Shown: one piece after another, positions 1,982 through 39,798 of the stretch
Numbering within the stretch: position 1 is the first letter of the stretch
Layout of the letters: the number at the start of each line of letters is the position of its first letter
Source: Planctomycetota bacterium
GTDB taxonomy: Bacteria; Planctomycetota; UBA1135; UBA2386
Length of the DNA stretch: 49,832 nt
NCBI GenBank assembly: GCA_016872675.1
Contig: VGZG01000021.1
Span: 1-49,832 of the forward strand
Direction: 5' to 3'
The notes under the pieces: model-generated
Databases searched by the model: none
Told to the model about the DNA's origin: nothing
The model's input: only the letters and a program-made list of their open reading frames with translations
Made by a program: the position numbers and the translations under genes

Positions 1982-4099
1982 CTACAGCAAGCCGCGGCGC
2001 TTGAGCAGCGCCTTGGTGTCGAGGTCGCGGCCGCGGAAGGCGGCGAACATCGACATCGGCTCGACGGTCATGCCGCGCGCCAGCACGAGGTCGCGGAAGC
2101 GCTTGCCGTTCTGCGCCGTCATGCCGCCGTTCTCGACGCACGCGGCGAAGGCGTCGGCCGCCAGCGCCTCGCTCCACATGTAGGCGTAGTAGCCCGCCGA
2201 GTAGCCGCCCGGCCAGACGTGCGCGAAGTACGTGCTGCGGTAGCGCGGCGGCACGAGGTCGAGGTCGACGCCGGCCTTGGCGAGCGCCTGCTTCTCGAAC
2301 GCGAGCACGTCGTCGACCTTGGTCCCGGCCGGCAGCGTGTGCCACGCCATGTCGAGCAGCGCCGCGGCGACGTACTCCAGCGACGCGAAGCCCTGGCCGA
2401 AGGTGCGCGCCGCGCGGATCTTGCCGACCAATTCCTGCGGCATCGCCTCGCCAGTCTGCCAGTGCTTGGCGCAGCGCGCGAGCACCGCGGGATCGAAGGC
2501 GAAGTCCTCGTGGAACTGCGACGGGAACTCGACGAAGTCGCGCGGCACGCTGGTGCCTGACAGCAGCGGGTAGCGCACCTTGCTGAAGAGCCCGTGCACG
2601 CCGTGCCCGAACTCGTGGAACATCGTCGTGACCTCGTCGAAGCTCAGCAGCGTCGGCTGGCCGTCGCCGGCCTTCTGGATGTTCATCACGTTGACGACGA
2701 CCGGCAGTTGGCCGAGCAGCTCGGTCTGGTCGACGAAGTTGTCCATCCACGCGCCGCCGCGCTTGCTCGGGCGGGCGAAGTAGTCGGCGTAGAACAGGCC
2801 GAGCTTGCTGCCGTCGCCGTCGAACACCTCGAACACGCGCACGTCGGGGTGGTAGACGGGCAGGTCCTTGCGCTCGCGGAGTTCGACGCCGTACAGCTGC
2901 TTGGCCATGTAGAACATGCCGTCCTGCAGCACGCGGTCGATCGGGAAGTACTGCTTCACCGCACCCTCGTCGAAGGCGTACTTCTCCGTGCGCACCTTCT
3001 CGGCGACCCAACTCCAGTCCCAGGCCGCGAGCTTCTGGCCCTTCTGGTTGCGGTCGAGCCAGTCCTGCAGTTCGGCGGCCTCGGCCTTGGCCTTGACGAC
3101 GATCTGCGCCGCCATGCTCGCCAGCATCTTCTCGACCGCAGCACCCGAGCCCGCCATCTGGTCGGCGAGCACGTAGTCGGCGTGCGTCGCGTAGCCGAGC
3201 AGCTTGGCCTTCTCGGCGCGCAGCGCGGCGAGCTGCAGCACCAGCGCCTTGGTGTCGTTGCCGTTGCCGCGGGCGCAGCGGTTCATCGACGCCTCGAACA
3301 CGCGCTGGCGCGTGCCGCGGTCGTCGAGCGACGACAGCGCGCCCTGCGAGGTCGGCAGCTGCAGCGTCAGCAGCCACTTGCCGTCCTTGCCGGCGGCCTT
3401 GGCGGCGTCGGCGGCGGCCGAGACGGCGCTGGCGTCGAAGCCGGCGAGCGCCTTCTGGTCGTCGACGACGACGGCGAGATCCTTGGTGTCGGCGAGCAGA
3501 CGCTCCTGGAAGGTCGTCGTCAGCCTGCTCGACTCCTCGTTGATCGCGCGCAGCCGCTTCTGTGCGTCGAGCGACAGCCGCGCGCCGTTGCGCACGAACG
3601 ACAGGTGCAGGCGATCGACGAGGCGCTTCGCCTCGCCTGCGAGCGACTCGCGGCCGGCGTGCACCGCTTCCAGGCGCGCGAACAGCCGCGCGTCGAGGTA
3701 GATCGAGTCCTGGTGCGCGGCGAGTTTCGGCGCGACCTCGGCCTGGACCTTCTGGATCGTCGGGTTGGTCGTCGATTCGGTGAGGTTGAAGAACACCTTG
3801 GCGACGCGCGTCAGCAAGGCGCCGCTGCGCTCCATCGCCTCGACCGTGTTGGCGAACGTCGGCGCCTCGGGGTTGGCGGCGATCGCCTTGATCTCGGCGG
3901 CGTGCTGCTTCATGCCTTCGAGCAGGGCCGGCAGGTAGTGCGCGTCCTGGATGCGGTCGAAGGCGGGGGTCGTGTACGGCAGCGCGCTCGGCTGCGCGAA
4001 CGGGTTGCCGGCGAGGGGATCCTGGGCGGTGGCGGTGGTCATGGCGGCGCTGGCGGCGACGGCGGCCAGCAGGAATGCGGAGGCTTGGGTCGGTCGCAT
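1982..4099 (-). CDS. dcp: secreted M3-family peptidyl-dipeptidase (Dcp-like)
   Basis: Zinc oligopeptidase of family M3. The 705-residue length matches peptidyl-dipeptidase Dcp, which removes C-terminal dipeptides from oligopeptides. The zinc site HEFGH (in TMFHEFGHGVHGLF) is intact, and the third ligand Glu lies downstream in RDFVEFPSQFHED. The C-terminal substrate-binding stretch HVWPGGYSAGYYAYMW is typical of the family. Residues 1-25 form a signal peptide ending ATA, with Gln26 at the predicted mature N-terminus, so the enzyme is probably periplasmic, whereas the E. coli enzyme is cytoplasmic. The gene stands alone on the minus strand. A 407-nt stretch without genes lies upstream, so it likely has its own promoter, though none was recognised. 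Close relatives (OpdA/PrlC) share the fold; the WPGGYSAGYY region and the length favour Dcp. Confidence 0.92.
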   Translation of the reverse strand: MRPTQASAFLLAAVAASAAMTTATAQDPLAGNPFAQPSALPYTTPAFDRIQDAHYLPALLEGMKQHAAEIKAIAANPEAPTFANTVEAMERSGALLTRVAKVFFNLTESTTNPTIQKVQAEVAPKLAAHQDSIYLDARLFARLEAVHAGRESLAGEAKRLVDRLHLSFVRNGARLSLDAQKRLRAINEESSRLTTTFQERLLADTKDLAVVVDDQKALAGFDASAVSAAADAAKAAGKDGKWLLTLQLPTSQGALSSLDDRGTRQRVFEASMNRCARGNGNDTKALVLQLAALRAEKAKLLGYATHADYVLADQMAGSGAAVEKMLASMAAQIVVKAKAEAAELQDWLDRNQKGQKLAAWDWSWVAEKVRTEKYAFDEGAVKQYFPIDRVLQDGMFYMAKQLYGVELRERKDLPVYHPDVRVFEVFDGDGSKLGLFYADYFARPSKRGGAWMDNFVDQTELLGQLPVVVNVMNIQKAGDGQPTLLSFDEVTTMFHEFGHGVHGLFSKVRYPLLSGTSVPRDFVEFPSQFHEDFAFDPAVLARCAKHWQTGEAMPQELVGKIRAARTFGQGFASLEYVAAALLDMAWHTLPAGTKVDDVLAFEKQALAKAGVDLDLVPPRYRSTYFAHVWPGGYSAGYYAYMWSEALAADAFAACVENGGMTAQNGKRFRDLVLARGMTVEPMSMFAAFRGRDLDTKALLKRRGLL

Positions 4100-4760: not shown

Positions 4761-5762
4761 TCACCGGCCGAGCAGCGTCGCCTCGTAGGCGTGCACCGCC
4801 GGCGCGCCGCCGGTGTGCAGGAACAGCACCTTCTCGCCCTTCTGGAACGTCCCGGCGCGGCTCATGCCGATCAGCCCGGCCATGATCTTGCCGGTGTAGA
4901 CCGGGTCGAGCAGGATCGCCTCGGTGCGCGCGAGCAGTTGCACGGCCTCGACCATCGCTGCGTTGGGCAACGAGTACTTGGGCTGCCAATAGCCGCCGAC
5001 GCAGCGCACGGCCTCGCGCGGCACCTGCAGGCCCAGCCCCAGCAGGTCGCAGACCGCCTGCGCCTCCTTGTGCACCAGCGGCGCTTGGTCGGCCGGGTCG
5101 CGGCTGACGCCGACGCCGTGGATCGGCACGTCGATGCGGTTGCCGAGGAAGCCGGCGAGCAGGCCGCCGTGCGTGCCCGAACTGCCCGAGCCGACGACGA
5201 CGTGGTCGAAGCGCACGCCCTGCTCGAACGTCTGCTGCTGCAGTTCCTGCGCGCAGGCGACGTAGCCCAGCCCGCCGAGCGCGTTGCTGCCGCCGCCCGG
5301 GATGACGTAGCCCTTGCGGCCCTGGCGGGCGAGTTCGTCGGCCACCTGCTGCATCGCCGCCGCCATGTCCGTGCCGGCCGGCACGACGGTGATCGCCTCG
5401 ACGCCGAACAAGCGGAACAGGAAGTGGTTGCCGCTGGCGTCGTCGCGGTAGCTGCCGGGGATGCGCTCCTCGATCACGAAGCGGCACCGGAGCCCTTCCT
5501 TGACCGCGGCGGACAGGGTGATGCGGCAGTGGTTGGACTGCGGCGCGCCGCAGGTGATCAGCGTGTCGCAGCCCTGCGCCAGGGCGTCGGCGACCAGGAA
5601 CTCGAGCTTGCGCGTCTTGTTGCCGCCCGGCGACAAGCCCAGCAGGTCGTCGCGCTTGATCCAGACATCCGGGCCGCCCAGGGCCTTGGTGAAGTGGGAC
5701 AGGAACTCGAGCGGGGTTGGACCGTGGCTGTACTGGCGGCGGGTAAAGCGGGCGAGATCCAT
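4761..5762 (-). CDS. dcyD: D-cysteine desulfhydrase / ACC deaminase-family PLP enzyme
   Basis: A 333-residue fold-type II PLP enzyme. The Schiff-base lysine is probably Lys49 in SPGGNKTRKLEF, followed by CGAPQSNHCR, which contains the Ser-Asn-His of the family. The Gly-rich phosphate loop appears as GSGSSGTHGG and the C-terminal part as FLHTGGAPAVHAYE. D-cysteine desulfhydrase converts D-cysteine to pyruvate, sulfide and ammonia. ACC deaminase and L-cysteate sulfo-lyase share this architecture and cannot be excluded. The closing LHTGG pattern and the length are closest to DcyD. The start at 5762 gives MDLARFTRRQYSHGPTPLEF, the expected N-terminus. It is divergent from the DUF1801 gene with only 22 nt between starts. 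The cell probably uses it for D-amino-acid detoxification or as a sulfur/carbon source. Confidence 0.85.
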   Translation of the reverse strand: MDLARFTRRQYSHGPTPLEFLSHFTKALGGPDVWIKRDDLLGLSPGGNKTRKLEFLVADALAQGCDTLITCGAPQSNHCRITLSAAVKEGLRCRFVIEERIPGSYRDDASGNHFLFRLFGVEAITVVPAGTDMAAAMQQVADELARQGRKGYVIPGGGSNALGGLGYVACAQELQQQTFEQGVRFDHVVVGSGSSGTHGGLLAGFLGNRIDVPIHGVGVSRDPADQAPLVHKEAQAVCDLLGLGLQVPREAVRCVGGYWQPKYSLPNAAMVEAVQLLARTEAILLDPVYTGKIMAGLIGMSRAGTFQKGEKVLFLHTGGAPAVHAYEATLLGR

Positions 5763-28021: not shown

Positions 28022-28843
28022 ATGGAACTGCCGCCTGCCGACCAGTTGGACGCGCGCCTGCGCTTCGCCGCCGAGATCGCCGAGGCCGCCGGCCGCCGGC
28101 TCGTCGGCATCCGCGCCAGCGGCCGCTGGACCGAGCCCGGCCTCGTCGGCGAAGTCGGCGACCAGGCCGCCGACGCCTACCTGCAGGGCGCGATCCGCGC
28201 GCGCCACGCCGCCGACGGCCTGCTGTCGGAGGAGACCGCCGACGGGCCGGAGCGCCTGGCGCGACGGTGGGCCTGGATCGTCGATCCGCTCGACGGCACC
28301 AAAGAGTATTCGCAGGGCCGCCACGACTGGGCGGTGCACGTCGGCCTCGCCTGGGACGGCGTCGCCGTGGCGGGCGCGCTGGCGCTGCCGGCGATTGGCC
28401 GCGTCGTCGCTGGCCGCTGTGTCGTCGGCGACACGCGCGCGACGCTGACCGGCGGCGGCGGCGACTGGCCCCTGGCGCTGTCGCCCGCCAACCAGTCGGC
28501 CGCCGGCCGTCGACTGCGCATGGTGTGCAGCCGCAGCCACACGCCGTCGCTCGTGCAGCGCGTGGCCGATGGCCTCGACGCCGAGCTCGTGCCGTGCGGC
28601 AGCGTCGGCTTCAAGGTCGCGATGCTGCTGTTCGGCCGCGCCGATGTGTATGTGCACAAGAAGGGCCTGCGCGAATGGGACGTCTGCGCGCCCGACGCCG
28701 TGGCGCAGGCATGCGGCTTCGTCGTCTGCCGCTTCGACGGCGAGCGCCATTGCTACAACCGGCCCGATCCCCGCAGCGACGAGATCGTCGTCTGTCGGCC
28801 GTGGCTCAGGGAGCGCGTGCTGGCGCTCGTTGGCGCGTCGTGA
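28022..28843 (+). CDS. cysQ: 3'(2'),5'-bisphosphate nucleotidase (CysQ-like, inositol monophosphatase superfamily)
   Basis: A 273-residue Mg-dependent phosphatase. The metal site motif WIVDPLDGTKEYSQG is intact. The variant DPLDGTKEY, rather than the inositol monophosphatase DPIDGTxNF, is characteristic of CysQ/PAP phosphatases. Glu in LLSEE supplies a further metal ligand, and REWDVCAPDAVAQACG is the C-terminal metal/substrate motif. The likely reaction is PAP to AMP, which relieves product inhibition after sulfate transfer from PAPS. A PAPS-forming operon (cysC, cysD, cysNC) lies about 2.3 kb away on the other strand, which supports this assignment. The next gene on the same strand is an ABC permease after 132 nt. 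Inositol monophosphatase activity cannot be ruled out from sequence alone. Confidence 0.85.
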   Translation: MELPPADQLDARLRFAAEIAEAAGRRLVGIRASGRWTEPGLVGEVGDQAADAYLQGAIRARHAADGLLSEETADGPERLARRWAWIVDPLDGTKEYSQGRHDWAVHVGLAWDGVAVAGALALPAIGRVVAGRCVVGDTRATLTGGGGDWPLALSPANQSAAGRRLRMVCSRSHTPSLVQRVADGLDAELVPCGSVGFKVAMLLFGRADVYVHKKGLREWDVCAPDAVAQACGFVVCRFDGERHCYNRPDPRSDEIVVCRPWLRERVLALVGAS

Positions 28844-28975
28844 CGCGGGGCGTACGGCGCCACCGGGTCTTCCGCGCCGCGAAACGCGCGATGCCGCCAC
28901 AGTCCACTACCCCCAGCGTTCGATGAGGGCGGGCGCGGCGACCCTGCCGGCGCGACGTTACATTCTGCCGACCCG

Positions 28976-29869
28976 ATGAGCTTCGTCCGCAACTACGACG
29001 CCGCGACCGACAACCACGGAGTGCTCCGGCACGTCGCGACGATGTTCCGTTACCCGGCCGTTGTCTGGCAGCACCGCTACATGGTGCAGAACTTCCTGCG
29101 TCGGGATCTGCTGTCACGCGTCAACGGCTCGGCCCTCGGCATTGGCTGGCTGCTGCTGCAGCCGTTGTTCCTGTTCGCCGTCTACTACGCGGTCTTCGGC
29201 ATGCTGTTTGGCGGCCGCAGCGGGACGGGCGAGGCGAGCGCGCAGTTCGCGCTCTACCTGTTCTCCGGCGTTCTCGTCTGGCAGGCGTTCGCCGAGGCGT
29301 CGACGGTGTCGTGCGCGATGATCGTCGACAACGGCAACCTCGTGAAGAAGGTCGCCTTCCCGTCCGAGGCGCTGTTCGTGCATGTCGGCGCCGTTGCGAT
29401 GATCGTCTACCTGCTCGGCGCGGCCATCTGCGTGGCGACCGCGCTGATCATGGGCGTCGGCGCCGTAGGCTGGTCGCTGCTCGGCCTGCCGCTGGTGATG
29501 CTGATCCAATTCGTGTTCACGCTCGGGCTCGGCATGCTGCTGGCTAACGCCAACGTGTTCGTCCGCGACGTCGGCCAGTTGTGGCGGATCGTCGTTTCGG
29601 CCTGGATGTTCCTCTCGCCGGTGTTCTGGGAGCCAAAGCTGCTCCAACAGAACGATCAGGTGCCGCAAGGGTTCGTCGCGCTGGCCATGGACTGGAACCC
29701 GATGTATCCGCTGCTGATGGCGCACCGGCTCGCGCTCGGCGGCGACGCGCCGTTCCTCGGCGAGTTCTGGCCGCAGGTCGGTCGCTCGGCGGCGTGGGCC
29801 GTCGGCGTGTTCGTGCTCGGCTACGGCTTGTTCATGAGCCGCAAGCACAAGTACGCCGACTTGATCTGA
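28976..29869 (+). CDS. ABC-2 type polysaccharide export permease (Wzm/TagG-like)
   Basis: A 297-residue integral membrane protein. The start MSFVRNYD is followed by an amphipathic interface (WQHRYMVQNFLRRDLLSRVNGSALGIGWLLLQP), the classic beginning of ABC-2 permeases for O-antigen, capsule or teichoic acid export. About six hydrophobic segments follow, with ASTVSCAMIVDNGNLVKKVAFPSE as the coupling-helix region and DVGQLWRIVVSAWMFLSPVFW later. It should form the channel half of an exporter whose ATPase is most likely the convergent gene at 29890-31095. The two genes face each other 20 nt apart, although such pairs are usually cotranscribed. It is preceded by cysQ on the same strand. Confidence 0.9.
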   Translation: MSFVRNYDAATDNHGVLRHVATMFRYPAVVWQHRYMVQNFLRRDLLSRVNGSALGIGWLLLQPLFLFAVYYAVFGMLFGGRSGTGEASAQFALYLFSGVLVWQAFAEASTVSCAMIVDNGNLVKKVAFPSEALFVHVGAVAMIVYLLGAAICVATALIMGVGAVGWSLLGLPLVMLIQFVFTLGLGMLLANANVFVRDVGQLWRIVVSAWMFLSPVFWEPKLLQQNDQVPQGFVALAMDWNPMYPLLMAHRLALGGDAPFLGEFWPQVGRSAAWAVGVFVLGYGLFMSRKHKYADLI

Positions 29870-29889
29870 CCGCTGGCGGTGCGCCGGGG

Positions 29890-31095
29890 TCAGCGCGCCA
29901 GCGGCTCCACCTGCCAGCGGTGGCCCTGCAGGAACAGTCCCAGGTCCTTCGTGCGGTTCTGCACGATCAAGTTCTGTGTCGCCGGGCGCTCCTGGTACAG
30001 GTGCACGCCGTTGCCATCGAATAGCCAGATCGGCACGCCGAACTCACCCGACAGCAGGCACAGCGAGTCGATCATGAGCGTGACGTGGCCTTCGGCGAAG
30101 TCGATCTTCAGGCCGGCGAACTGCGTCGTGTGCGCGAAGCACAGCGTGCCGTCGGTCCGCTTGGCGCCGACCGCGACGACGATCGGCTCGCGCTTGGGGT
30201 TGCGCACGGTCACGCGCACCGCCGCCTGCTCGCCCGGCGCGAAGACGTTGCGCGGCTTGCCGGTCGCCGGGTCGAGGATCTCGGCGGTGAGGATCCGCGG
30301 CAGGTCGTCGGCGGCGGGGGCCTTGGGGTTGTCGGCGAACGGCGACGGGTCGCCGCCGGCGAGCAGGTTGTTCTCGTAGGTGGCGTACTCGTTGGTGACC
30401 GTCACCGCGTCCGCCAACATCTGCACTCGCCCCTGCTTGAGCCAGATCGCACGCTCGCAGATCTGGCGCACTTGGTAGAGGCCGTGCGAGCAGAAGAACA
30501 TCGACTTGCCGCGCTGCTTGAAGCTCCACACGCGGTCGAAGCACTTCTTCTGGAAGTTCATGTCACCGACGCTCAGGATCTCGTCGATGATCAGCAGGTC
30601 TGGGTCGGTCGCCATCGCGACGCTGAACGCGAGCCGCGCGGCCATGCCGGAGCTGTAGGTTCGCACCGGCGCGTCGATGAACTCGCCGAGCTCGCTGAAG
30701 TCGACGATCTCGCCGAACTTGCGGTGCGCCTCCTTGCGCGAGAAGCCGAGCATCGCGGCGTTCATGAAGATGTTCTCGCGGCCGGTGAACGCCGTGTTGA
30801 AGCCGGCGCCGAGCTCGAGCAGGCTGGTGACGCGGCCGCGCACCGTGTAGCTGCCGGCGGTCGGGAAGGTCGTGCTGCTCAGCACCTTCAGCAGCGTCGA
30901 CTTGCCGGCGCCGTTGGTGCCGATGAGGCCGACGCACTCGCCGGGCGCGACGGCAAAGCTGACGTCTCGCAGCGCGTGGACCTCGCGATAGCGCTTCTTG
31001 CGGTCCCACGGCAGGCGCTCGAGCAGCCGACCGTAGGGGCTGTCGTACAGGCGGTACGACTTGCCGAGTCCCTTGGCTTCAATGACGGGTTGCAT
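29890..31095 (-). CDS. ABC transporter ATP-binding protein with C-terminal Wzt-like domain
   Basis: A 401-residue ATPase. The Walker A motif is GTNGAGKSTLLKVL, the signature TYSSGMAARLAFSVAMAT and Walker B LLIIDEILSVGD. The H-loop is FCSHGLYQV. The start region LGKSYRLYDSPYGRLLERLPW and the GFSRKEAHRKFGEIVDFSELGEFIDAPVRTYSSGM arrangement are those of Wzt/TagH exporters (first part only quoted as key positions). Residues about 260-400 form the extra beta-sandwich of Wzt proteins, which in O-antigen export recognises the finished glycan end (VRVTVRNPKREPIVVAVGAKRTDG). The ATG at 31095 is chosen (MQPVIEAKGLGKSY). It starts 7 nt after the cysNC stop, making it the last gene of the cysC-cysD-cysNC operon, and it faces its probable permease partner. 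Confidence 0.9.
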   Translation of the reverse strand: MQPVIEAKGLGKSYRLYDSPYGRLLERLPWDRKKRYREVHALRDVSFAVAPGECVGLIGTNGAGKSTLLKVLSSTTFPTAGSYTVRGRVTSLLELGAGFNTAFTGRENIFMNAAMLGFSRKEAHRKFGEIVDFSELGEFIDAPVRTYSSGMAARLAFSVAMATDPDLLIIDEILSVGDMNFQKKCFDRVWSFKQRGKSMFFCSHGLYQVRQICERAIWLKQGRVQMLADAVTVTNEYATYENNLLAGGDPSPFADNPKAPAADDLPRILTAEILDPATGKPRNVFAPGEQAAVRVTVRNPKREPIVVAVGAKRTDGTLCFAHTTQFAGLKIDFAEGHVTLMIDSLCLLSGEFGVPIWLFDGNGVHLYQERPATQNLIVQNRTKDLGLFLQGHRWQVEPLAR

Positions 31096-31102
31096 CGCCG
31101 AC

Positions 31103-33049
31103 TCACTCCAGCATGCCATGGGCGCGCAGCAAGGCGATGACCTTGTCGACGTTCGTCGGCAGGTCGATGCGCCAGGTGTCGAGGCGCAGGTCCGGCGCGG
31201 GCGGCGCCTCGTACGGGGCGTCGATGCCGGTGACGCCCACGGTCTCGCCGGCGCGGGCGCGGGCGTACAGGCCGTCCTGGTCGCGCGCTTCGCAGACCTC
31301 CAGCGGCGCGTCGCAGTGGATCTCGACGAAGCGCTCGGCGCCGACGATCGCGCGCGCCTGTTGCCGCTCGGCCGCCAGCGGCGACACGAGGGCGACGATC
31401 GTGATCAGGCCGGACTCGGCGTTGAGCCGGGCGACCTCGGCGGCCCGGCGCTGGTTCTCCCAGCGATCCGCGCCGCGGAAGCCCAGGTCGCGGCTCAGGC
31501 CGCGGCGCAGGACCTCGCCGTCGAGGACCTGCATTAGCCGGCCATCGCCGAACAGGCGTTCCTCGAGCGCGTAAGCCAGCGACGACTTGCCGCTGCGCGG
31601 CAGCCCGGTGATCCACAGCACGAACGGCCGCTGGCCCAGGCGCGCGGCGCGCGCATCGGCGGTGACGCGCCGCTTGTCGACGAGCTGCAGGTTGCGGCCG
31701 GCGTCGGCGGCGGCGGCGCGCGTGCGGCCGGTGCTCTCCTTGGCGGTCATGCGCTCGACGACCATGCCGGCGCCGACCGTCGCGTTGGTCATGCGGTCGA
31801 TGAGGATGAACGAGCCGGTGGTGCGGTTCTGCGCGTAGGCGTCGGCCGCCAGCGGTCGCGCCGTCTCCAGGCGGATGCGGCCGATCTCGTTCATCTGCAG
31901 TTCGTCGGCCGGCTCGCTGCGCAGCGTGGCGACCTGGATGCGATAGCGCAGGTCGGTGACCTCGCCAGGGGTCTCCAGCGCGGTGTGCTTGACGAGGTAC
32001 TGCCGGCCGGTCTGCATCGGCGTCTCGGCGAACCAGACGACCATCGCCTCGACCGAGTTGTCGAGGGCCGGCGCGTTGTTGGCGGCGACGATCATGTCGC
32101 CGCGGCTGATGTCGATCTCGTCGGCGAGCGTGACGGTCACCGCCATCGGGGCCCACGCCTCGCGGACCTCGACGCCGCCGACCAGCAGCGACTTGACGCG
32201 CGAGCGCTGCCCGGACGGCAGCGTCGCGATCTCGTCGCCGACCCGCAGGATGCCAGAGGCGAGCGTGCCGCAGAAGCCGCGGAAGTCGAGGTTGGGCCGC
32301 AGCACGAGCTGGACCGGCAGGCGCAGGTCGACGAGGTTGCGGTCGCCGGCGAGGTGCACCGACTCGAGGTGCGCCAGCAGCGGCGCGCCCTGGTACCACG
32401 GCATCTCCTCGCTGCGGCGCACGACGTTGTCGCCCTTGAGCGCCGATATCGGCAGGAAGTGGATGTCCTGCACCTGCAGGCGCGCGGCGAACTCGGCGTA
32501 CGTGGCGCGGATCTCCTCGAAGCGCGCCTCGCTCCAGCCGACGAGGTCCATCTTGTTGATCGCGACGACGAAGTGCTGGATGCCGAGCAACGAGCACAGG
32601 AACGAGTGGCGGCGCGTCTGCTCGAGCACGCCGTGGCGGGCGTCGAGCAGGATGATCGCGAGGTCGCAGTTCGACGCGCCGGTGGCCATGTTGCGCGTGT
32701 ACTGCACGTGCCCTGGCGTGTCGGCGATGATGAACTTGCGCTTGTCGGTGGCGAAGTACCGGTGGGCGACGTCGATGGTGATGCCCTGCTCGCGCTCGGC
32801 CTGCAGGCCGTCGACCAGCAGCGCGAGGTCGACCTCCTCGCCGGTCGTGCCGTAGCGGGTCGTCGCCTTCTTGGTCGCCGCCAGCACGTCGTCGTGGACC
32901 GCCTGCGAGTCGTACAGCAGGCGGCCGATGAGCGTCGACTTGCCGTCGTCGACGCTGCCGCAGGTCAGCAGGCGCAGCATCTCGCGCTGGCCGTAGCGGG
33001 CCAGCCAGCTTTCGATGCCCAACTGGTCGATCTGGTCGCCGTAGGCCAT
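31103..33049 (-). CDS. cysNC: CysN-CysC fusion: ATP sulfurylase GTPase subunit with divergent APS kinase domain
   Basis: A 648-residue fusion. Residues 1-~425 are CysN, the GTPase driving sulfate adenylation with CysD: G1 GSVDDGKSTLIG, G2 region QGITIDVAHRYF, G3 DTPGH, G4 NKMD, followed by EF-Tu-like beta domains. After a linker (~430-470) comes a CysC-like domain with P-loop GLPRSGKSSLA, LDGEVLRRGLSRDLGF and DGLYARARAGE. Compared with canonical APS kinase, DGDN has become DGEV, SP[FY]R has become SPLA, and KGLYKKA has become DGLYARA, so the kinase half is diverged. A canonical stand-alone cysC is in the same operon. The ATG at 33049 overlaps the cysD stop as TGATG, giving coupling. Readthrough sequence upstream in this frame lies inside cysD and cysC and is not part of the protein. 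Confidence 0.93.
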   Translation of the reverse strand: MAYGDQIDQLGIESWLARYGQREMLRLLTCGSVDDGKSTLIGRLLYDSQAVHDDVLAATKKATTRYGTTGEEVDLALLVDGLQAEREQGITIDVAHRYFATDKRKFIIADTPGHVQYTRNMATGASNCDLAIILLDARHGVLEQTRRHSFLCSLLGIQHFVVAINKMDLVGWSEARFEEIRATYAEFAARLQVQDIHFLPISALKGDNVVRRSEEMPWYQGAPLLAHLESVHLAGDRNLVDLRLPVQLVLRPNLDFRGFCGTLASGILRVGDEIATLPSGQRSRVKSLLVGGVEVREAWAPMAVTVTLADEIDISRGDMIVAANNAPALDNSVEAMVVWFAETPMQTGRQYLVKHTALETPGEVTDLRYRIQVATLRSEPADELQMNEIGRIRLETARPLAADAYAQNRTTGSFILIDRMTNATVGAGMVVERMTAKESTGRTRAAAADAGRNLQLVDKRRVTADARAARLGQRPFVLWITGLPRSGKSSLAYALEERLFGDGRLMQVLDGEVLRRGLSRDLGFRGADRWENQRRAAEVARLNAESGLITIVALVSPLAAERQQARAIVGAERFVEIHCDAPLEVCEARDQDGLYARARAGETVGVTGIDAPYEAPPAPDLRLDTWRIDLPTNVDKVIALLRAHGMLE

Positions 33050-33957
33050 CAGAAGTAGCCTTCCCGCTTCTTCTGCTCCATCGAGCCGCCTTCGTCGTAG
33101 TCGATCACGCGGCCTTGTCGCTCGGAGTCGCGGCTGCGGAGCATCTCCTCGATGATCTTGGGCATGGTGTCGGCCTCGGATTCGATCGCGCCGGTGAGCG
33201 GGTAGCAGCCGAGCGTGCGGAAGCGCACCTTGCGCAGTTCCGGCTTCTCGCCGGGCTCGAGCGGCATGCGGTCGTCGTCGACCATGATCCACGCGGCGCC
33301 GCGGCGCACGACCGGGCGCTCCTTGGCAAAGTACAGCGGCACCATCGGCAGCTGCTCCTTGTGCGCGTAGAGCCAGACGTCGAGCTCGGTCCAGTTGCTC
33401 AGCGGGAACACGCGGATCGACTCGCCCTTGTTGACGCGGCAGTTGAACAGGTTCCAGAGCTCGGGCCGCTGGTTCTTCGGGTCCCACTGGTGGAAGCGGT
33501 CGCGGAAGCTGAACACGCGCTCCTTGGCGCGGCTCTTCTCCTCGTCGCGCCGCGCGCCGCCGAACGCCGCGTCGAAGCCGCCGGCGGTCAGCGCCTGCTT
33601 CAGCGCGAGCGTCTTCATGACGTGCGTGTGCTTCTGCGTGCCGTGCGTGAAGGGCCCGACCTCGTCGCGCACGCCGTCGGGATTGATCCACTCGACGAAG
33701 TCGAGCTCCATGTCGCGGACGATCCGATCGCGGAACTCGATCATCTCGCGGAACTTCCACCGCGTGTTGACGTGCAGGACCTTGAACGGGATGCGCGCCG
33801 GCGCGAAGGCCTTCTCGGCCAGGCGTAGCATCACGCCGCTGTCCTTGCCTATCGAGTACAGCATCACCGGCTTCTCGAACGAGGCGGCGACCTCGCGGAT
33901 GATGTTGATGCTCTCGTGTTCGAGCTGTGCTAGGTGGTGGATCGTGTAGCCGGTCAT
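33049..33957 (-). CDS. cysD: sulfate adenylyltransferase subunit 2
   Basis: The 302-residue catalytic subunit of ATP sulfurylase, exactly the usual length. With CysN it forms APS from sulfate and ATP. The PP-loop is visible as [13 protein letters not shown] (SxGKDS), with [34 protein letters not shown] and [27 protein letters not shown], followed by the C-terminal [11 protein letters not shown] and REGYF ending typical of CysD (motifs listed in order). The ATG at 33957 overlaps the cysC stop in ATGA, and the stop overlaps the cysN start in TGATG. These overlaps mark one tightly coupled operon in the order cysC, cysD, cysNC, Wzt-like ATPase. Confidence 0.97.
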
Positions 33958-34568
33958 CGCGCCTCCGTCGTCGGGACCGCGCCGCGGGCGCGTAGCAGCG
34001 CCAGCAGTTGCTCGACGCACTCGTCAACCGTGCGGTCGGCGCTGCGCAGGCGGATGTCCGGGTCGGCGGGCGGCTCGTACGGCGAATCGACGCCGGTGAA
34101 GTCGGCGAGCTGGCCGGCGCGGGCCTTCTTGTAGAGGCCCTTCGGGTCGCGCTGCTCGCAAGCGGCGAGCGGGGCGTCGACATGGACCTCGATCATGTCG
34201 GCGCCGAGCAGGTCGCGCGCGGCCTCGCGGTCGGCGCGGAACGGCGAGACGAAGGCGGTGACGACGATCGCGCCGAGGTCGACGAACAGCGCTGCGGTGT
34301 GCGCGGCGCGGCGGATGTTCTCGCTGCGCGCGGCGGCGTCGAAGCCGAGGTCGGCGCACAGCCCGTGCCTTAGGTTGTCGCCGTCGAGCACGCTGCACAG
34401 CCGGCCGAGCGCGAACAGCCGCGCCTCGAGCGCGCGCGCGATCGTCGATTTGCCGGCGCCCGACAGGCCCGTGAGCCAGACGACGCAGCCGCGCTGGCCG
34501 AGCAGCCGCTCCCGGTCAGCGCGGGCAACGACGCCGTGGTGCATGCGAAGGTTGCGGTCGGCGGCCAT
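33954..34568 (-). CDS. cysC: adenylylsulfate (APS) kinase
   Basis: A 204-residue kinase making PAPS from APS and ATP. All family motifs are canonical: P-loop [62 protein letters not shown] and [11 protein letters not shown]. It is the first gene of the sulfate-activation operon. The second CysC-like domain, fused to CysN downstream, lacks several of these residues, so this protein is probably the main APS kinase. The ATG at 34568 leaves a 186-nt gap to the upstream gene, which must carry the promoter; none was confidently recognised. The N-terminus [19 protein letters not shown] is typical for CysC. Confidence 0.96.
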
Positions 34569-34754: not shown

Positions 34755-35819
34755 TCAGCGAACTGCCAGCAGCTCTTCGCCGCGGCGGACCGCGGTGTTG
34801 GGGTCGTTGGCGACGGCGTCGGCGCCGACGACACGGTGCAGGTCGTCGACGACCGCAAACGGGCCGCCGCCGACGAGGATCGGCGGGCAATGGCGTCCGA
34901 GCGCGTCGCGCAACTGCGCGATCGTGGCGCGCGCGCTGCCCACATGCAGGACCAGTGTCGCACCGAGCGCGATGAGGTCGACCTTGCGATCCTGCAACAT
35001 CCACTCGAAGTCGTGCCCGGGCATGTCGGCGCCGAGGTTCCAGACGTCGTAGCCGTGCGCCTCGAAGCGGTCGGCGACCATGCGCAAACCGATGGCGTGC
35101 ATGTCGCCACCGACGGCGAACATCAGCACCGTGCGATTGCGCCGTATCGGCGCCGTGGACATCGTCGACATCCGGTCGAGGCAACTCTCGACGATGCGCG
35201 AGGCGAAGTGCTCGTCGGCGATCGGGATTTCGCTCATCAGCCACATGCGGCCGACCTCGCGCTGCGCGGTCGACAGCAGGTGGTCGTGGATGTCGGCGAC
35301 GCTTACGCCGGCAGTTCGCAGGCCCATGACCAGATCGATCGCGTCGGCGCGGCGGTTCTCGAGCACGGCCAGCAGGAAGCGCCGCGCCTCGACGCGCAGC
35401 GGTCCGTCACCCTCCAGGTAGCTGGGGATTTCAGTCGGCGCTTCGGCCGCAGCGCGCAGGGCGGCGTCGACGTGGCGGTCGATGGCTGGCTGGCACTCGG
35501 CGGGCAATTCGGCGCGCAGCGCCGAGCGGATCGCCTGCAGGTTCTCCGGCAAGTAGGCCGCGGCGACGTTGCGGTGGGCGAGCGCGACCTTGTACCAGGC
35601 GGATTGGTGGGCCAGTAGCTGCGGACGGTCGACGTCGAGGGACTCCGCCAGCGCGAGAATGCGCATGCGCGTGTCATCGACCGGATCGGCGAAGGTGCTT
35701 GGCAGGCCGCCGTCGACCAGTTCGGGCCGCGACTTGGTCAGCGCGTCGAGCGCGAGCAGCGCGACCGCGCGGGAACTCTGGCGCAGAACGCCGGCGGCGA
35801 AGCGTTCGGGGTGCTGCAC
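34755..35819 (-). CDS. cobalamin-binding CarH-like sensor without DNA-binding domain
   Basis: A 354-residue protein from GTG 35819. Residues ~140-220 form a four-helix B12 cap domain and ~228-350 a Rossmann-type B12-binding domain. The B12 motif DxHxxG is at residues 239-244 (DMHAIG), with His241 the expected lower ligand of cobalt. The cap has Trp193, Glu203 and His204, exactly the Wx9EH pattern characteristic of CarH-type adenosylcobalamin photoreceptors. The residue after the Trp is Leu194, whereas T. thermophilus CarH has the His there that becomes the second ligand after illumination. Residues 1-~135 are helical ([16 protein letters not shown]) and replace the MerR-type helix-turn-helix of CarH; they loosely resemble an RsbR-type N-domain. 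It is divergent from the fasciclin gene and next to an ECF sigma/anti-sigma pair, suggesting a light- or B12-sensing regulator acting through protein contacts. Confidence 0.8.
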
Positions 35820-35867
35820 AGCGTTGGTTCTATCGCTAACGCCGGTGACAAGCCAAGACACGATGCC

Positions 35868-35897
35868 GCATCCGCAGTCAGTGCATCCGCGGATGCA
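35868..35897. promoter_or_regulatory. 16-bp palindrome plus half-site in divergent intergenic region
   Basis: TGCATCCGCGGATGCA at 35882-35897 is a perfect 16-bp palindrome. An extra half-site GCATCCGC lies at 35868-35875, 15 bp upstream in direct orientation. It is placed between the B12-sensor start (35819) and the fasciclin start (35964), as expected for an operator. The binding protein is not known. Confidence 0.5.
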
Positions 35898-35921
35898 GTC
35901 CGCGGCGAAGTGTTCAATCCC

Positions 35922-35963: not shown

Positions 35964-36866
35964 ATGCTCCGCTTCGTTCCGCTGTTCGCCGCCGGCCTGC
36001 TGGCCGCCGGTCTCGCCGCCCAGACCCCGGTTGACGCTTCGGCCAAGCCGACGAAGGACATCGTCGGCACCGCCATCGGTGCCGGCTCGTTCCAGACGCT
36101 CATCGCCGCAGTGAAGGCCGCCGGCCTCGTCGAGACGCTGCAGGGCGAAGGCCCGTTCACCGTCTTCGCGCCGACGGACGAGGCGTTCGCCAAGCTCGGC
36201 AAGGAGACGATCGCCGACCTGCTGAAGCCGGAGAACAAGGCCAAGCTGACGGCCGTGCTGACCTACCACGTCGTTCCCGGCAACATGCCGGCTGGCAAGG
36301 TCGTCACCCAGACGTCGCTCGCCACGGCTCAGGGCGCGTCGCTGCCGATCGTCGCCAACAAGGACGGCGTGACCGTCGCCGGCGCGAAGGTCGTCAAGAC
36401 CGACGTCATGGCCACCAACGGCGTGATCCACGTCATCGACACGGTCGTGCTGCCGCCGGAGAACATCGTCGCCACGGCGGCGAAGGCCGGCAAGTTCCAG
36501 ACGCTGCTGACCGCGGCCACGGCCGCCGGCCTCGCCGACACGCTCGCCAACGGCGGCCCGTTCACGGTATTCGCGCCGACGGACGAGGCGTTTGCCAAGC
36601 TGGGCAAGGAAACGATCGCCGAACTGCTGAAGCCGGCGAACAAGAACAGGCTCGCCAACGTCCTCAAGTACCACGTCGTCGCCGGCGTCGTGAAGGCCGC
36701 TGACGTCGTCAAGCTGACGGAGGCCAAGACGCTGCAGGGCGGCGCGGCCGCCATCAAGGTCGCCGACGGCAAGGTCATGGTCGACGGCGCGAACGTCGTC
36801 GCCACGGACGTCGCGGCCAGCAACGGCGTGATCCACGTCATCGACACCGTCATCCTCCCGCGCTGA
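35964..36866 (+). CDS. secreted protein with two fasciclin (FAS1) domains
   Basis: A 300-residue exported protein. The signal peptide is residues 1-19 (ending GLAA), Gln20 next. Two FAS1 domains follow, at about residues 32-162 and 167-298, each with the H1 core [17 protein letters not shown] and the H2 core [10 protein letters not shown][VI]LP, with the YH motif (TYHVV, KYHVV) between. FAS1 domains mediate cell-matrix or cell-cell adhesion and are often induced with ECF regulons. The two domains are nearly identical over the H1 stretch (7 differences in 90 nt between 36150-36239 and 36555-36644), pointing to a recent tandem duplication of a 135-codon unit. The ATG at 35964 is used. It lies upstream of the ECF sigma gene in the same direction, with a hairpin between. 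Confidence 0.93.
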
Positions 36867-36910
36867 GAGCCGGAAATCGTGCAGGCTACGCCGGAACTCC
36901 AATACGCAGT

Positions 36911-36937
36911 GCGGCGCGTTCACGTAGAACGTGCCGC
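36911..36937 (+). terminator. 11-bp hairpin between fasciclin and sigma-factor genes
   Basis: GCGGCGCGTTC and GAACGTGCCGC pair over 11 bp (one G-U) around a 5-nt loop, 44 nt after the fasciclin stop and 16 nt before the ATG of the sigma gene. It is either a terminator/attenuator limiting readthrough or an mRNA leader. Its presence argues against the earlier GTG start of the sigma gene at 36879. Confidence 0.5.
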
Positions 36938-36953
36938 CTCGAGTTCCGAGCGA

Positions 36954-37508
36954 ATGAGTCCGTCCCTGCTTCCTCGCATCGCCGCCGGCGACATGGCTGC
37001 CGTCAGCGAGTTCCTCCGTCGCCACACCAACTTGGTGATGGGGCAAGCGCGACGCTTTTGCCGCAACGCCCAGGACGCCGAGGACGCGGTCCAGGACATC
37101 TTCCTGGAGATCTGGCGCAGCGCCGCGCGCTTTGATCCGAACATGGGCTCCGAGACGACGTTCGTCGCGACCATCGCGCGGCGTCGTCTCGTCGATCGCA
37201 TCCGGCGGCTCACCAGCAAACCGGCGCCCGACCTGCTCGAGGACGCGACGACGATCGCCGCCAAGCCCGAGCGCGACGACGTCGACCTGCGCGACGAGGC
37301 TGCGCGCGCCAAGGCGGCCATGGAGAAGCTGCGGCCGGAGCAGCGCCAGGTGCTTGAACTCGCGCTCGGCCACGGCCGCTCGCACCAGGAGATCGCCGCC
37401 AGCTGCGGCATCCCGCTCGGCACGGTGAAGAGCCACGCCCGCCGCGGCCTGATCCGACTGCGCAAAATGCTCGGCGTGGACTCAGAGTCGCCGGAGGGCA
37501 AGCGATGA
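36954..37508 (+). CDS. ECF-family RNA polymerase sigma factor
   Basis: A 184-residue extracytoplasmic-function sigma factor. Region 2 includes the -10-recognising stretch RNAQDAEDAVQDIFLEIWRSAARFD and TFVATIARRRLVDRIRR. Region 4 has the helix-turn-helix HQEIAASCGIPLGTVKSHARRGLIRLRKML (motifs given in parts; key residues are EIA, LGTVKSH and R-RL). The ATG at 36954 (MSPSLLPRIAAGDMAAV) matches typical ECF N-termini. A GTG at 36879 would extend it through a hairpin. Its stop overlaps the ATG of the anti-sigma gene (ATGA), so both proteins should be made in a fixed ratio. The partner is RskA-like, so it belongs to the SigK-like or related ECF groups. It lies downstream of the fasciclin gene and upstream of SOUL and SRPBCC genes. 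Confidence 0.92.
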   Translation: MSPSLLPRIAAGDMAAVSEFLRRHTNLVMGQARRFCRNAQDAEDAVQDIFLEIWRSAARFDPNMGSETTFVATIARRRLVDRIRRLTSKPAPDLLEDATTIAAKPERDDVDLRDEAARAKAAMEKLRPEQRQVLELALGHGRSHQEIAASCGIPLGTVKSHARRGLIRLRKMLGVDSESPEGKR

Positions 37509-38281
37509 CCGCCGAACTGGAGCCGTCGCGCTGCGAAGCGCTGCTCGCCGACGCCGCCCTGGGCTGGGTCGACGAGGCCGAACGCGACGAACTCGCGGCG
37601 CTGCTGCGAGATCCGCAGGCGCAACGGGAGTACGAACAACTCGAGCGCGCCGCCGCGGTCGCCGGCATCGTCGCCGCAGCGTCCGCCGCCGAGCGCGACG
37701 TCGACGCCATGCTGGCGCTCGCCGCCAAGTTGCACGCGGACGCCGCTGCGCACTTCGCCGCCGCCCGCGTCGAATCGGCGCGCGCGCGCCGCCACCCGCT
37801 GCGCGCGCTGCCGTGGCTGCTCGCCGCCGCGAGCGTCGTGTTGGCGCTGTGGCCGCACGGCGAGCCGACGCCGGTCGTGCCGAGCCTCGCGCGCGAGGCG
37901 TTGCTGCAGCAGCCGGCGTCGCAATGGGTGCAGTGGGACTGGCAGCCGGGCCCGAGCCCGCTCCGCGGCGACGTCCAGGGCGACGTGGTCTGGGCCGTCG
38001 GCCGGCACCATGGATTCTTGCGCCTGCGCGGCTTGCCCAAGCTCGACATGGACCACAGCTACCAACTCTGGATCCTCGACGGCAGCCGCCAAGGCGCGCC
38101 GGTCGACGGTGGCGTGCTGGAAAACATCAGCAGCGGGGTCGCCGAGAGCGAGGAGGTCGTCGTCCGCGTGTCGTCCCGCCTGCCCGTGCGCCGCGAAGCC
38201 GGCTTCGTGCTGACGGTGGAAGGGTACGATGGCGCCGTCGTGTCGGCCCAGGAGCACGTCGTCGCCGTCGCCAAGCCCTGA
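37505..38281 (+). CDS. RskA-type anti-sigma factor
   Basis: A 258-residue membrane protein. The N-terminal ~75 residues (CEALLADAALGWVDEAERDELAALLRD) match the helical anti-sigma domain of RskA/ZAS-like proteins, without the zinc HxxxCxxC motif. A membrane segment lies around residues 100-118 (ALPWLLAAASVVLALW). The C-terminal outer domain is the RskA beta fold (GFLRLRGLPKLDMDHSYQLWILDG, VVVRVSSRLPVRREAGFVLTVE). It should hold the ECF sigma factor at the membrane until a signal in the periplasm triggers release, usually by proteolysis. It overlaps the sigma gene by 4 nt. No cysteine pair or haem ligand that would name the signal is visible. Confidence 0.9.
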   Translation: MTAELEPSRCEALLADAALGWVDEAERDELAALLRDPQAQREYEQLERAAAVAGIVAAASAAERDVDAMLALAAKLHADAAAHFAAARVESARARRHPLRALPWLLAAASVVLALWPHGEPTPVVPSLAREALLQQPASQWVQWDWQPGPSPLRGDVQGDVVWAVGRHHGFLRLRGLPKLDMDHSYQLWILDGSRQGAPVDGGVLENISSGVAESEEVVVRVSSRLPVRREAGFVLTVEGYDGAVVSAQEHVVAVAKP

Positions 38282-38399
38282 CCCTGCCGACGGATCGCGC
38301 CCACAGCGATTCGATGGCAATGGCTTCCGCGGTCGGTGTGCCAGCGGCTGGCCGTCGTCTGCGTGCATCCACCGGTCGTCCGTCGGCGAACGGTGCGCC

Positions 38400-39236
38400 A
38401 TGCGTTTCCTGCCAATCGCTCTCCTCGTCGCCGCCACCGCCGTCGCCCAGCAGCGCCTCTTCGACCCGACGGACGCGCCGGCGCGCGCTTCGGCCGCGGC
38501 GGTGCTGTCGTACGGCGTTGCCGCCAGCAAGACCGATGGCGAGGTCGGCGTCGAGCGACTGCACGCGGCGATCGCGACGGCCTGCCACTGCCTGCCGGCC
38601 GGTTCGGCCGCGCGCGCGGCGGCTGCGGAACTCCGCGCGGAAGCCGGCGGCGCCAAGGCGCTCGCCAAGCAGGTCGCGGCGCTGGCCGCCGACCTGAGCT
38701 TCCGTCCCGTCGCCGAGGCCGAACTGCCCGCCGGCGTGCCGGGGTTCGCCGTGCTCGACGAGATCGAGATCCGCACCTACCCGACCTACCGCATGGTCAA
38801 GACGGCGATGAAGGACGGCTCGATGGGCGCGTTCTGGCCGCTGTTCAACCACATCAAGGACAACGACATCGCGATGACGACGCCGGTGCAGGTCGACTAC
38901 GCCGAGGACGGCGAGCGCCAGCGCGAGGCGTCGATGGCGTTCCTATATGGCTCGCCTGACCTCGGCCCGCTGCGCAAGGACGGCGCCGTCGAGGTCGTCG
39001 ACGTGCCGGCGCTGACCGTGCTGACGCTCGGTTCGCGCGGCTACGACCGCAAGAGCCGCGTCGAGGAGCTGCGCGCGCGCATGGATGCCTGGCTCGCGGA
39101 TCACCCCGAGTGGCAGGCTGTCGGGCCGATGCGAACGATGGGCTACAACAGCCCGTCGGTCGCCGGCAACCGACGCTACTTCGAGGTGCAGATCCCGATT
39201 GCGCCGAAGGCGGGCAAGGGGCAAGACGCGCAGTGA
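38400..39236 (+). CDS. exported SOUL haem-binding family protein
   Basis: A 278-residue protein. The ATG at 38400 begins a signal peptide (MRFLPIALLVAATAVA, Gln17 next). Residues ~95-270 match the SOUL/HBP fold: FAVLDEIEIRTYPTYRMVKTAM, FWPLFNHIKDNDIAMTTPVQVDY and VLTLGSRGYDRKSRVEELRARMDAW, with NRRYFEVQIPI at the end (these are the conserved strand-helix elements). SOUL proteins bind tetrapyrroles such as haem or porphyrins. A periplasmic member next to a possible B12-based sensor and an ECF system may sequester porphyrins, which are photosensitisers, but this is inference. It lies 118 nt after the anti-sigma gene and 34 nt before the SRPBCC gene on the same strand. Confidence 0.88.
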   Translation: MRFLPIALLVAATAVAQQRLFDPTDAPARASAAAVLSYGVAASKTDGEVGVERLHAAIATACHCLPAGSAARAAAAELRAEAGGAKALAKQVAALAADLSFRPVAEAELPAGVPGFAVLDEIEIRTYPTYRMVKTAMKDGSMGAFWPLFNHIKDNDIAMTTPVQVDYAEDGERQREASMAFLYGSPDLGPLRKDGAVEVVDVPALTVLTLGSRGYDRKSRVEELRARMDAWLADHPEWQAVGPMRTMGYNSPSVAGNRRYFEVQIPIAPKAGKGQDAQ

Positions 39237-39270: not shown

Positions 39271-39798
39271 GTGACTGCCGCCGCCGCCGCGACCGCCGCC
39301 CTGCCGCGCGGTGATGCCGTGTTGCGCTGTGAGTTCTGGACGCCGGCCCAGGTGACCGAAGTCTGGCCGTTCTTCGCTGATGCCGGCAACCTGCAGGAGT
39401 TGACGCCGCCTTGGCTCGACTGCCGCATCCTGACGCCGCGGCCGATCCCGATGCACGTCGACGCGCGCATCGAGTACCGCGTCCGCATCCGCGGCATCCC
39501 CGTGCGCTGGCGCTCGCGCATCGCCGAATGGCAACCGCTCGTCCGTTTCGTCGACGAGCAGGAGAAGGGCCCATACCGCGTCTGGCGCCATACGCACACG
39601 TTCGAACCGAAGGACGGCGGCACGCTGCTCGGCGACCACGTCGTCTTCGCGGTGCCCGGCGGCCCGCTGGCGCCGCTGCTGCGGCGGTGGTGGGTCGAGC
39701 CCGACGTGCTGCGCATCTTCCGGTTCCGGCTGGAACGCATGGCTGCCCGCTTCGGCGGATCCGGCGGCCGCGTCTGGATCGCAGACGCGACGGCCTGA
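39271..39798 (+). CDS. SRPBCC-fold ligand-binding protein
   Basis: A 175-residue cytoplasmic protein of the START/polyketide-cyclase-like SRPBCC superfamily. The GTG at 39271 has a Shine-Dalgarno AGGAG 8 nt upstream. The pattern VWPFFADAGNLQELTPPWLDCRIL is the N-terminal helix-strand of this group, followed by YRVRIRGIPVRWRSRIAEW, FVDEQEKGPYRVWRHTHTF, DHVVFAVPGGPLAPLLRRWWVEPDVLRIFRFR (segments listed, not continuous). The hydrophobic cavity of such proteins binds lipids or isoprenoids. Closely similar SRPBCC genes often accompany photolyase or light-induced clusters. It is the last gene before the flagellar operon and is followed by a 7-bp hairpin. Confidence 0.82.
   Translation: MTAAAAATAALPRGDAVLRCEFWTPAQVTEVWPFFADAGNLQELTPPWLDCRILTPRPIPMHVDARIEYRVRIRGIPVRWRSRIAEWQPLVRFVDEQEKGPYRVWRHTHTFEPKDGGTLLGDHVVFAVPGGPLAPLLRRWWVEPDVLRIFRFRLERMAARFGGSGGRVWIADATA

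Follow-up and report, generated by a model that had tools for sequence, protein, structure and literature searches.

What does a B12-dependent light sensor that has no DNA-binding domain act upon? The question is raised by a gene in a 49,832-nucleotide stretch of DNA from a Planctomycetota bacterium (contig VGZG01000021.1, positions 1 to 49,832; hereafter the window), in whose product the first-pass annotation had recognised a CarH-type adenosylcobalamin (AdoCbl) light-sensing core. Our analysis indicates that the protein is a stand-alone photocobilin in reversed order, with a bilin-type globin first and the B12 domain after it, and we consider it probable that a photocobilin-type protein of this kind controls the adjoining SigK/RskA regulon by light through protein contact.

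The motifs on which the annotation had relied, W193-x9-E203-H204 and DMHAIG at residues 239-244, are present as described, the gene lying on the minus strand, and conservation bears out the light-sensing core that they were taken to form. Pfam placed a B12-binding_2 domain at residues 146-215 (4.5e-9) and a B12-binding domain at residues 230-337 (1.6e-14) of the 354-residue protein, and its core residues, W193-x9-E203-H204, D239-M-H241-A-I-G and GADMP267, supply in full the signature that a published survey gives for light-responsive cobalamin-binding domains (GxxW, EH, GxxH and GxxxP; PMC11796333). At the level of sequence this pattern is not due to chance, because W193, E203, H204, H241, G263 and P267 were invariant in an alignment of 30 family members, all full-length and drawn from the genus, family and order to which the window protein belongs. 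When 23 more sequences were added, most of them from across the phylum, W193, E203, H241, G263 and P267 were still found in 53/53 and H204 in 52/53. A sequence search of the PDB with the whole protein returned the photocobilins 8j2y, 8j2x and 8j2w as the top matches, and its AlphaFold2 (AF2) model reached a mean predicted local distance difference test score (pLDDT) of 95.0 and a predicted template-modelling score (pTM) of 0.90. A cobalamin adenosyltransferase was found in 31/31 genomes and a cobalamin riboswitch in 29/31, the window's own genome included, and thus a supply of AdoCbl is present.

The N-terminal part had been described as some 135 helical residues that are not a MerR helix-turn-helix (HTH), and this description was right. 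An HTH, which the annotation had itself named as the finding that would count against it, was looked for, and neither an HTH nor any other DNA-binding domain was found in this region by Pfam on the protein, by Pfam on its family members or by fold search, so the MerR domain of CarH and LitR is missing. Rather than the unrecognised interaction module for which it had been taken, however, the region can be identified as a bilin-type globin. In the whole-protein PDB search a faint second alignment laid residues 46-101 onto the C-terminal globin of the photocobilin SasPcob, and a profile of the N-terminal domain matched that globin (8j2w; 2e-9) and AbPcob (8e-6), and phycobiliproteins came next (0.08 to 0.7). 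The Pfam family PF00502 (Phycobilisome) was matched in 2/19 family members, at best with 1e-4. Since Foldseek, given the whole model, matched chiefly its B12 part, the N-terminal domain was folded and searched alone; its model (pLDDT 93, pTM 0.88) had smURFP, allophycocyanins, phycocyanins and photocobilin as its nearest structures (TM ~0.65-0.78, probability 1.00, E 1e-3 to 4e-2), and the matches were almost all bilin globins, with two neuroglobin entries among the fifty listed. An RsbRD-type domain, considered at first, was dropped when Pfam gave no such match. In the crystal structure of SasPcob, Asp270 and Trp296 hold biliverdin and touch the corrin (PMC10979010); with SasPcob numbering taken as chain index plus 5, as set from Trp61 and His108, these residues align with Asp49 and Trp75 of the window protein (Table 1). 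The protein thus has a bilin-type globin domain beside its cobalamin-binding domain together with the biliverdin-contact residues, and its globin probably carries a bilin.

Because a bilin-type globin is joined to a light-type B12 domain, the protein is assigned to the photocobilins, as a known kind, since predicted structures have revealed some photocobilin groups whose B12 domain is N-terminal and others where it is C-terminal (PMC10979010). It resembles the characterised SasPcob (8J2W/8J2X) and AbDPcob (8J2Y; PMC10979010) in combining a light-type B12 domain having the same signature residues with a bilin globin, and also in having neither a covalent Cys nor a second axial His, but unlike them it is globin-first, carries no enzyme domain and is tied to a SigK/RskA cassette. 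With CarH and LitR it shares the AdoCbl-sensor Trp, the Glu-His pair, the lower His and GxxxP, whereas it lacks their MerR HTH and an equivalent of His132 and has the globin in addition. AerR and PpaA, too, are regulators that bind B12 and target a second regulator (PMC10734443), but similarity to them is weak (7te2, 3.7e-5) and extends over the B12 part only. Photoglobins (Schneider et al. 2022, as cited in PMC10151467) are globin-B12 fusion proteins as well; their CXQD motif, compared here by that citation only, does not occur in the window protein, which has PVDD instead, and the globin-B12 architecture may in part already be covered by that paper.

The annotation had further noted that leucine replaces the second axial His and had suggested that the photochemistry might be altered. 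Translation confirmed Leu194 at the site of Thermus CarH His132, so that the second axial His of CarH and LitR is absent, but this is no special alteration, for the loss is usual outside CarH: the residue is Gln in SasPcob, Tyr in AbDPcob and Arg in CtMerR (PMC11796333), and the light state of SasPcob is ligated by water or hydroxide (PMC10979010). Most of the 53 sequences have Leu or Gln at position 194, and His occurs there in 9/20 of those without Asp49 and in 0/33 of those with it; the homologues lacking Asp49 often carry Trp46-Lys/Arg47 (family alignment and L115-L134). These counts, which ignore descent, may reflect two classes of homologue, one bilin-competent and one CarH-like.

The target is suggested by the genes on the other side of the promoter region. 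There the window holds, in this order, genes for a fasciclin protein, a sigma factor and an RskA-type anti-sigma factor, followed by SOUL and SRPBCC genes (Table 1). SigK is the best NCBIfam model for the sigma factor, but at 138.4 bits the cut-off of 226 is missed, and we therefore call it SigK-like only. A fasciclin-sigK-rskA cassette is known from mycobacteria and some Gram-negatives (PMC7509140), and the SigK-RskA-MPT83 cassette described there agrees with the window locus in gene order, in its SigK-like sigma and RskA-type anti-sigma factors and in a common promoter motif ahead of the cassette. What distinguishes the window locus is the attached gene for a B12/bilin photoreceptor: the literature searched contained neither such a partner for the cassette nor a tie of a photocobilin to the SigK-RskA-fasciclin system.

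This association is repeated in related genomes. Over 101 of them, 39 had both a photocobilin and a SigK-like sigma factor, 52 had neither, 2 had the photocobilin only and 8 the sigma factor only, so that 39 of the 41 genomes with a photocobilin also have the sigma factor; in the window's own family the match was perfect (26 genomes with both, 8 with neither). The two genes lie less than 3 kb apart in 31/39 of the co-occurring genomes. In distant genomes the photocobilin gene directly follows the sigma gene; the two overlap by 4 nt in L052, and L046 (Myxococcota) has the order ECF (extracytoplasmic function) sigma-photocobilin-folE. Moreover, three of the eight sigma-only genomes (G062, G086 and G081) have a MerR-type, CarH-like B12 protein with W-x9-EH 2-3 kb from the sigma gene. 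The presence of two different B12 light sensors beside the same sigma factor lends independent support to a light input. Apart from this, in genome G013 (contig C161) the SigK-like sigma gene lies ~1.1 kb from the gene for cobalamin adenosyltransferase, the maker of AdoCbl (pair 3244-3771 / 4883-5404).

The putative regulon could be read from a promoter motif. Many family members share TGCATCC-N15/16-GCGAAY, or a variant close to it, in the intergenic region between photocobilin and fasciclin genes, and ten genomes gave 41 matches of this pattern against 2 for a reversed-pattern control, with the start codon 8-10 nt after the motif in many cases. The genes behind it encode fasciclin, SOUL, SRPBCC, a fatty-acid desaturase, GTP cyclohydrolase I (folE), a short-chain dehydrogenase, DUF2867, DUF1295 and DCC1-like proteins; SRPBCC-family genes carry it directly in L085, L086 and L094. 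Several matches were not followed by a convincing gene and may be due to chance. One such match, possibly a chance one too, is the second in the window's own genome (G000 contig C35, 15609-15637). Separately, four genomes have a SOUL gene under the same motif, which may point to a connection with the supply of tetrapyrroles. Next to distant photocobilin copies are genes for a thiouracil desulfurase-DUF1722 protein and a DCC1-like protein, a run of FAD oxidoreductase, DUF1365 and CMAS genes, and a gene that resembles photolyase but scores below the Pfam cut-off. Several gene kinds of this sort are light-induced under LitR in Pseudomonas (PMC9758184), the photo-oxidative response of Rhodobacter includes fasciclin, cfa-type and folE2 genes (PMC7074977), and illumination of M. 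kansasii induces those of its fasciclin genes that have SigK sites (PMC9861118). The predicted motif is thus one that heads genes typical of light responses. The photocobilin gene itself has a different element, a TAGAAC box just upstream of its GTG, and TAGAAC or TACAAC stands at a similar place shortly before the start in many homologues, which suggests a leaderless mRNA made from a housekeeping-type promoter.

How might such a protein reach the regulon? Domains, residues, fold, genomic coupling and promoter motif were computed, and for the photochemistry and the regulation by contact we turned to characterised photocobilins; the light response, the bilin, the partner and the direction of the switch are our inferences. 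In the dark the protein would hold AdoCbl with His241 as the lower ligand and the adenosyl group stacked on Trp193 and kept there by Glu203-His204, while the globin would be packed against the B12 domain, probably with a bilin that widens the usable colours. On illumination, by analogy to SasPcob, the Co-C bond would break, adenosine would leave, the cap helix would move and the quaternary state would change. Since the window protein is without a DNA-binding domain, its output would be a protein contact, presumably with the neighbouring SigK-like sigma factor or RskA; stand-alone photocobilins can act on a partner in this way (PMC10979010), and the protein-interaction output that the annotation had proposed therefore appears likely. 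If the switch runs in the direction that we favour, light would free the SigK regulon, with its genes for photo-protection and membrane lipids (fasciclin, SOUL, SRPBCC, desaturase, folE, DUF1295, DCC1 and others). Only tentatively, a little short of an even call, do we go further and propose that the photocobilin controls the ECF sigma factor or its anti-sigma factor directly, as a light input by protein contact that is evolutionarily interchangeable with DNA-binding CarH.

Several points weigh against light control by a bilin-carrying photocobilin. The co-occurrence statistic (Fisher's test, 1.3e-17) ignores relatedness; in 8/39 of the genomes with both genes the two lie apart, in some cases on broken contigs; and many homologues across the phylum lack a sigma gene of this kind within 1.5 kb, so that the link is common, not universal. 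In addition, the canonical haem oxygenase PF01126 was absent from the window's own genome and from 99/101 genomes searched, and PF14518 and PF10615 were also absent from the own genome, which thus has no recognised source of bilin. The lack of all three kinds of haem oxygenase would be expected if AdoCbl were the sole light sensor and the globin a structural remnant without bilin, a reading that we regard as possible, if somewhat doubtful. It agrees with the weak binding of biliverdin by AbDPcob (PMC10979010) and with the loss of Asp49 in 20/53 homologues, many of them with Trp46-Lys/Arg and 9/20 with His194. However, Asp49 is kept in 33/53, the window protein included, and Trp75 in all 53, and an external source or an enzyme that escaped recognition could supply the bilin.

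A different partner arrangement, in which the photocobilin does not work through RskA but serves as anti-sigma factor in its own right, or as a partner of sigma, seems rather unlikely to us: in several distant loci (L046 and L052) its gene comes so directly after the sigma gene that an anti-sigma gene would not fit in between, but these distant genomes may hold anti-sigma genes elsewhere, and members of the window's own family do have one of RskA type behind the sigma gene. AdoCbl binding alone alters the activity of AbDPcob, apo against dark (PMC10979010), and a sensor of B12 level could by its apo and holo states control the sigma factor with no role for light; this is improbable, as the predicted targets and the swapped-in CarH proteins point to light. 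It is more improbable still, to the point where we give it hardly any weight, that the protein is no sensor at all but a corrinoid methyl-carrier or a partner of another B12 enzyme. Corrinoid proteins such as MtgC (1e-19) were indeed its best NCBIfam matches, but all lay far below their cut-offs, with 70.9 bits against 370 for the MtgC model, so that the protein does not qualify as a corrinoid methyl-carrier of the MtgC or MtbC type; moreover, the full light signature is invariant, the top PDB matches are photocobilins, and the neighbours are sigma, anti-sigma and light-type genes.

For light control of the SigK/RskA regulon by a photocobilin, the new part is the genomic wiring to the cassette, the reversed photocobilin itself being of a known kind. 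The role of stand-alone photocobilins was called less clear by their discoverers (PMC10979010), and the stimulus of SigK-RskA was called obscure (PMC9861118); as the two are tied together across a bacterial order, one direct test would address both questions. If true, the proposal would give a stand-alone photocobilin a natural target for the first time and SigK/RskA a signal; it would also yield a useful tool, a soluble protein by which a sigma factor could be switched with light of several colours.

Table 1. Coordinates of the features discussed, in window positions unless a locus label is given
Feature	Position	Strand	Evidence or remark
Photocobilin-type protein gene (globin + B12-binding domain)	34755..35819	-	354 aa, GTG start at 35819; translation, Pfam, homologues, AF2 model
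N-terminal bilin-type globin domain, aa 1-134	35418..35819	-	profile vs PDB 8j2w E 2e-9; PF00502; fold search
Asp49, aligned with SasPcob Asp270 (biliverdin A/B/C ring contact)	35673..35675	-	sequence and profile alignment; D in 33/53
Trp75, aligned with SasPcob Trp296 (biliverdin D ring and corrin contact)	35595..35597	-	sequence and profile alignment; 53/53
B12 module helical cap (B12-binding_2) with W193-x9-E203-H204	35175..35384	-	Pfam, family alignment
Rossmann B12-binding domain with lower-ligand His241 and GxxxP	34809..35132	-	Pfam, family alignment
-10-like TAGAAC just upstream of photocobilin GTG	35827..35832	-	
Predicted ECF/SigK-type promoter TGCATCC-N16-GCGAAG, one mismatch, for divergent operon (fasciclin first)	35882..35910	+	
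Secreted protein, two fasciclin domains; MPT83/MPT70-like position in cassette	35964..36866	+	PF02469 4.5e-79
ECF sigma factor, SigK-like; start codon provisional	36879..37508	+	NCBIfam SigK PRK09646 2.1e-40; Pfam sigma-70 r2/r4
RskA-type anti-sigma factor	37505..38281	+	PF10099 RskA_C above cut-off
Predicted ECF/SigK-type promoter TGCATCC-N15-GCGAAC	38364..38391	+	8 nt ahead of SOUL start codon
SOUL haem-binding-family protein, predicted regulon member	38400..39236	+	PF04832, promoter motif
SRPBCC-family protein	39271..39798	+	PF03364/PF10604
MerR-CarH-like B12 proteins near SigK-like sigma gene	L157 6550-7497, L158 5626-6567, L159 5934-6857		genomes without photocobilin

On the far side of the photocobilin gene, positions 28022-34568 of the window carry genes for sulfate activation and polysaccharide export (cysQ-like, an ABC-2 permease and ATPase, cysN/C, cysD and a separate APS kinase), and this synteny is kept in the closest relatives.
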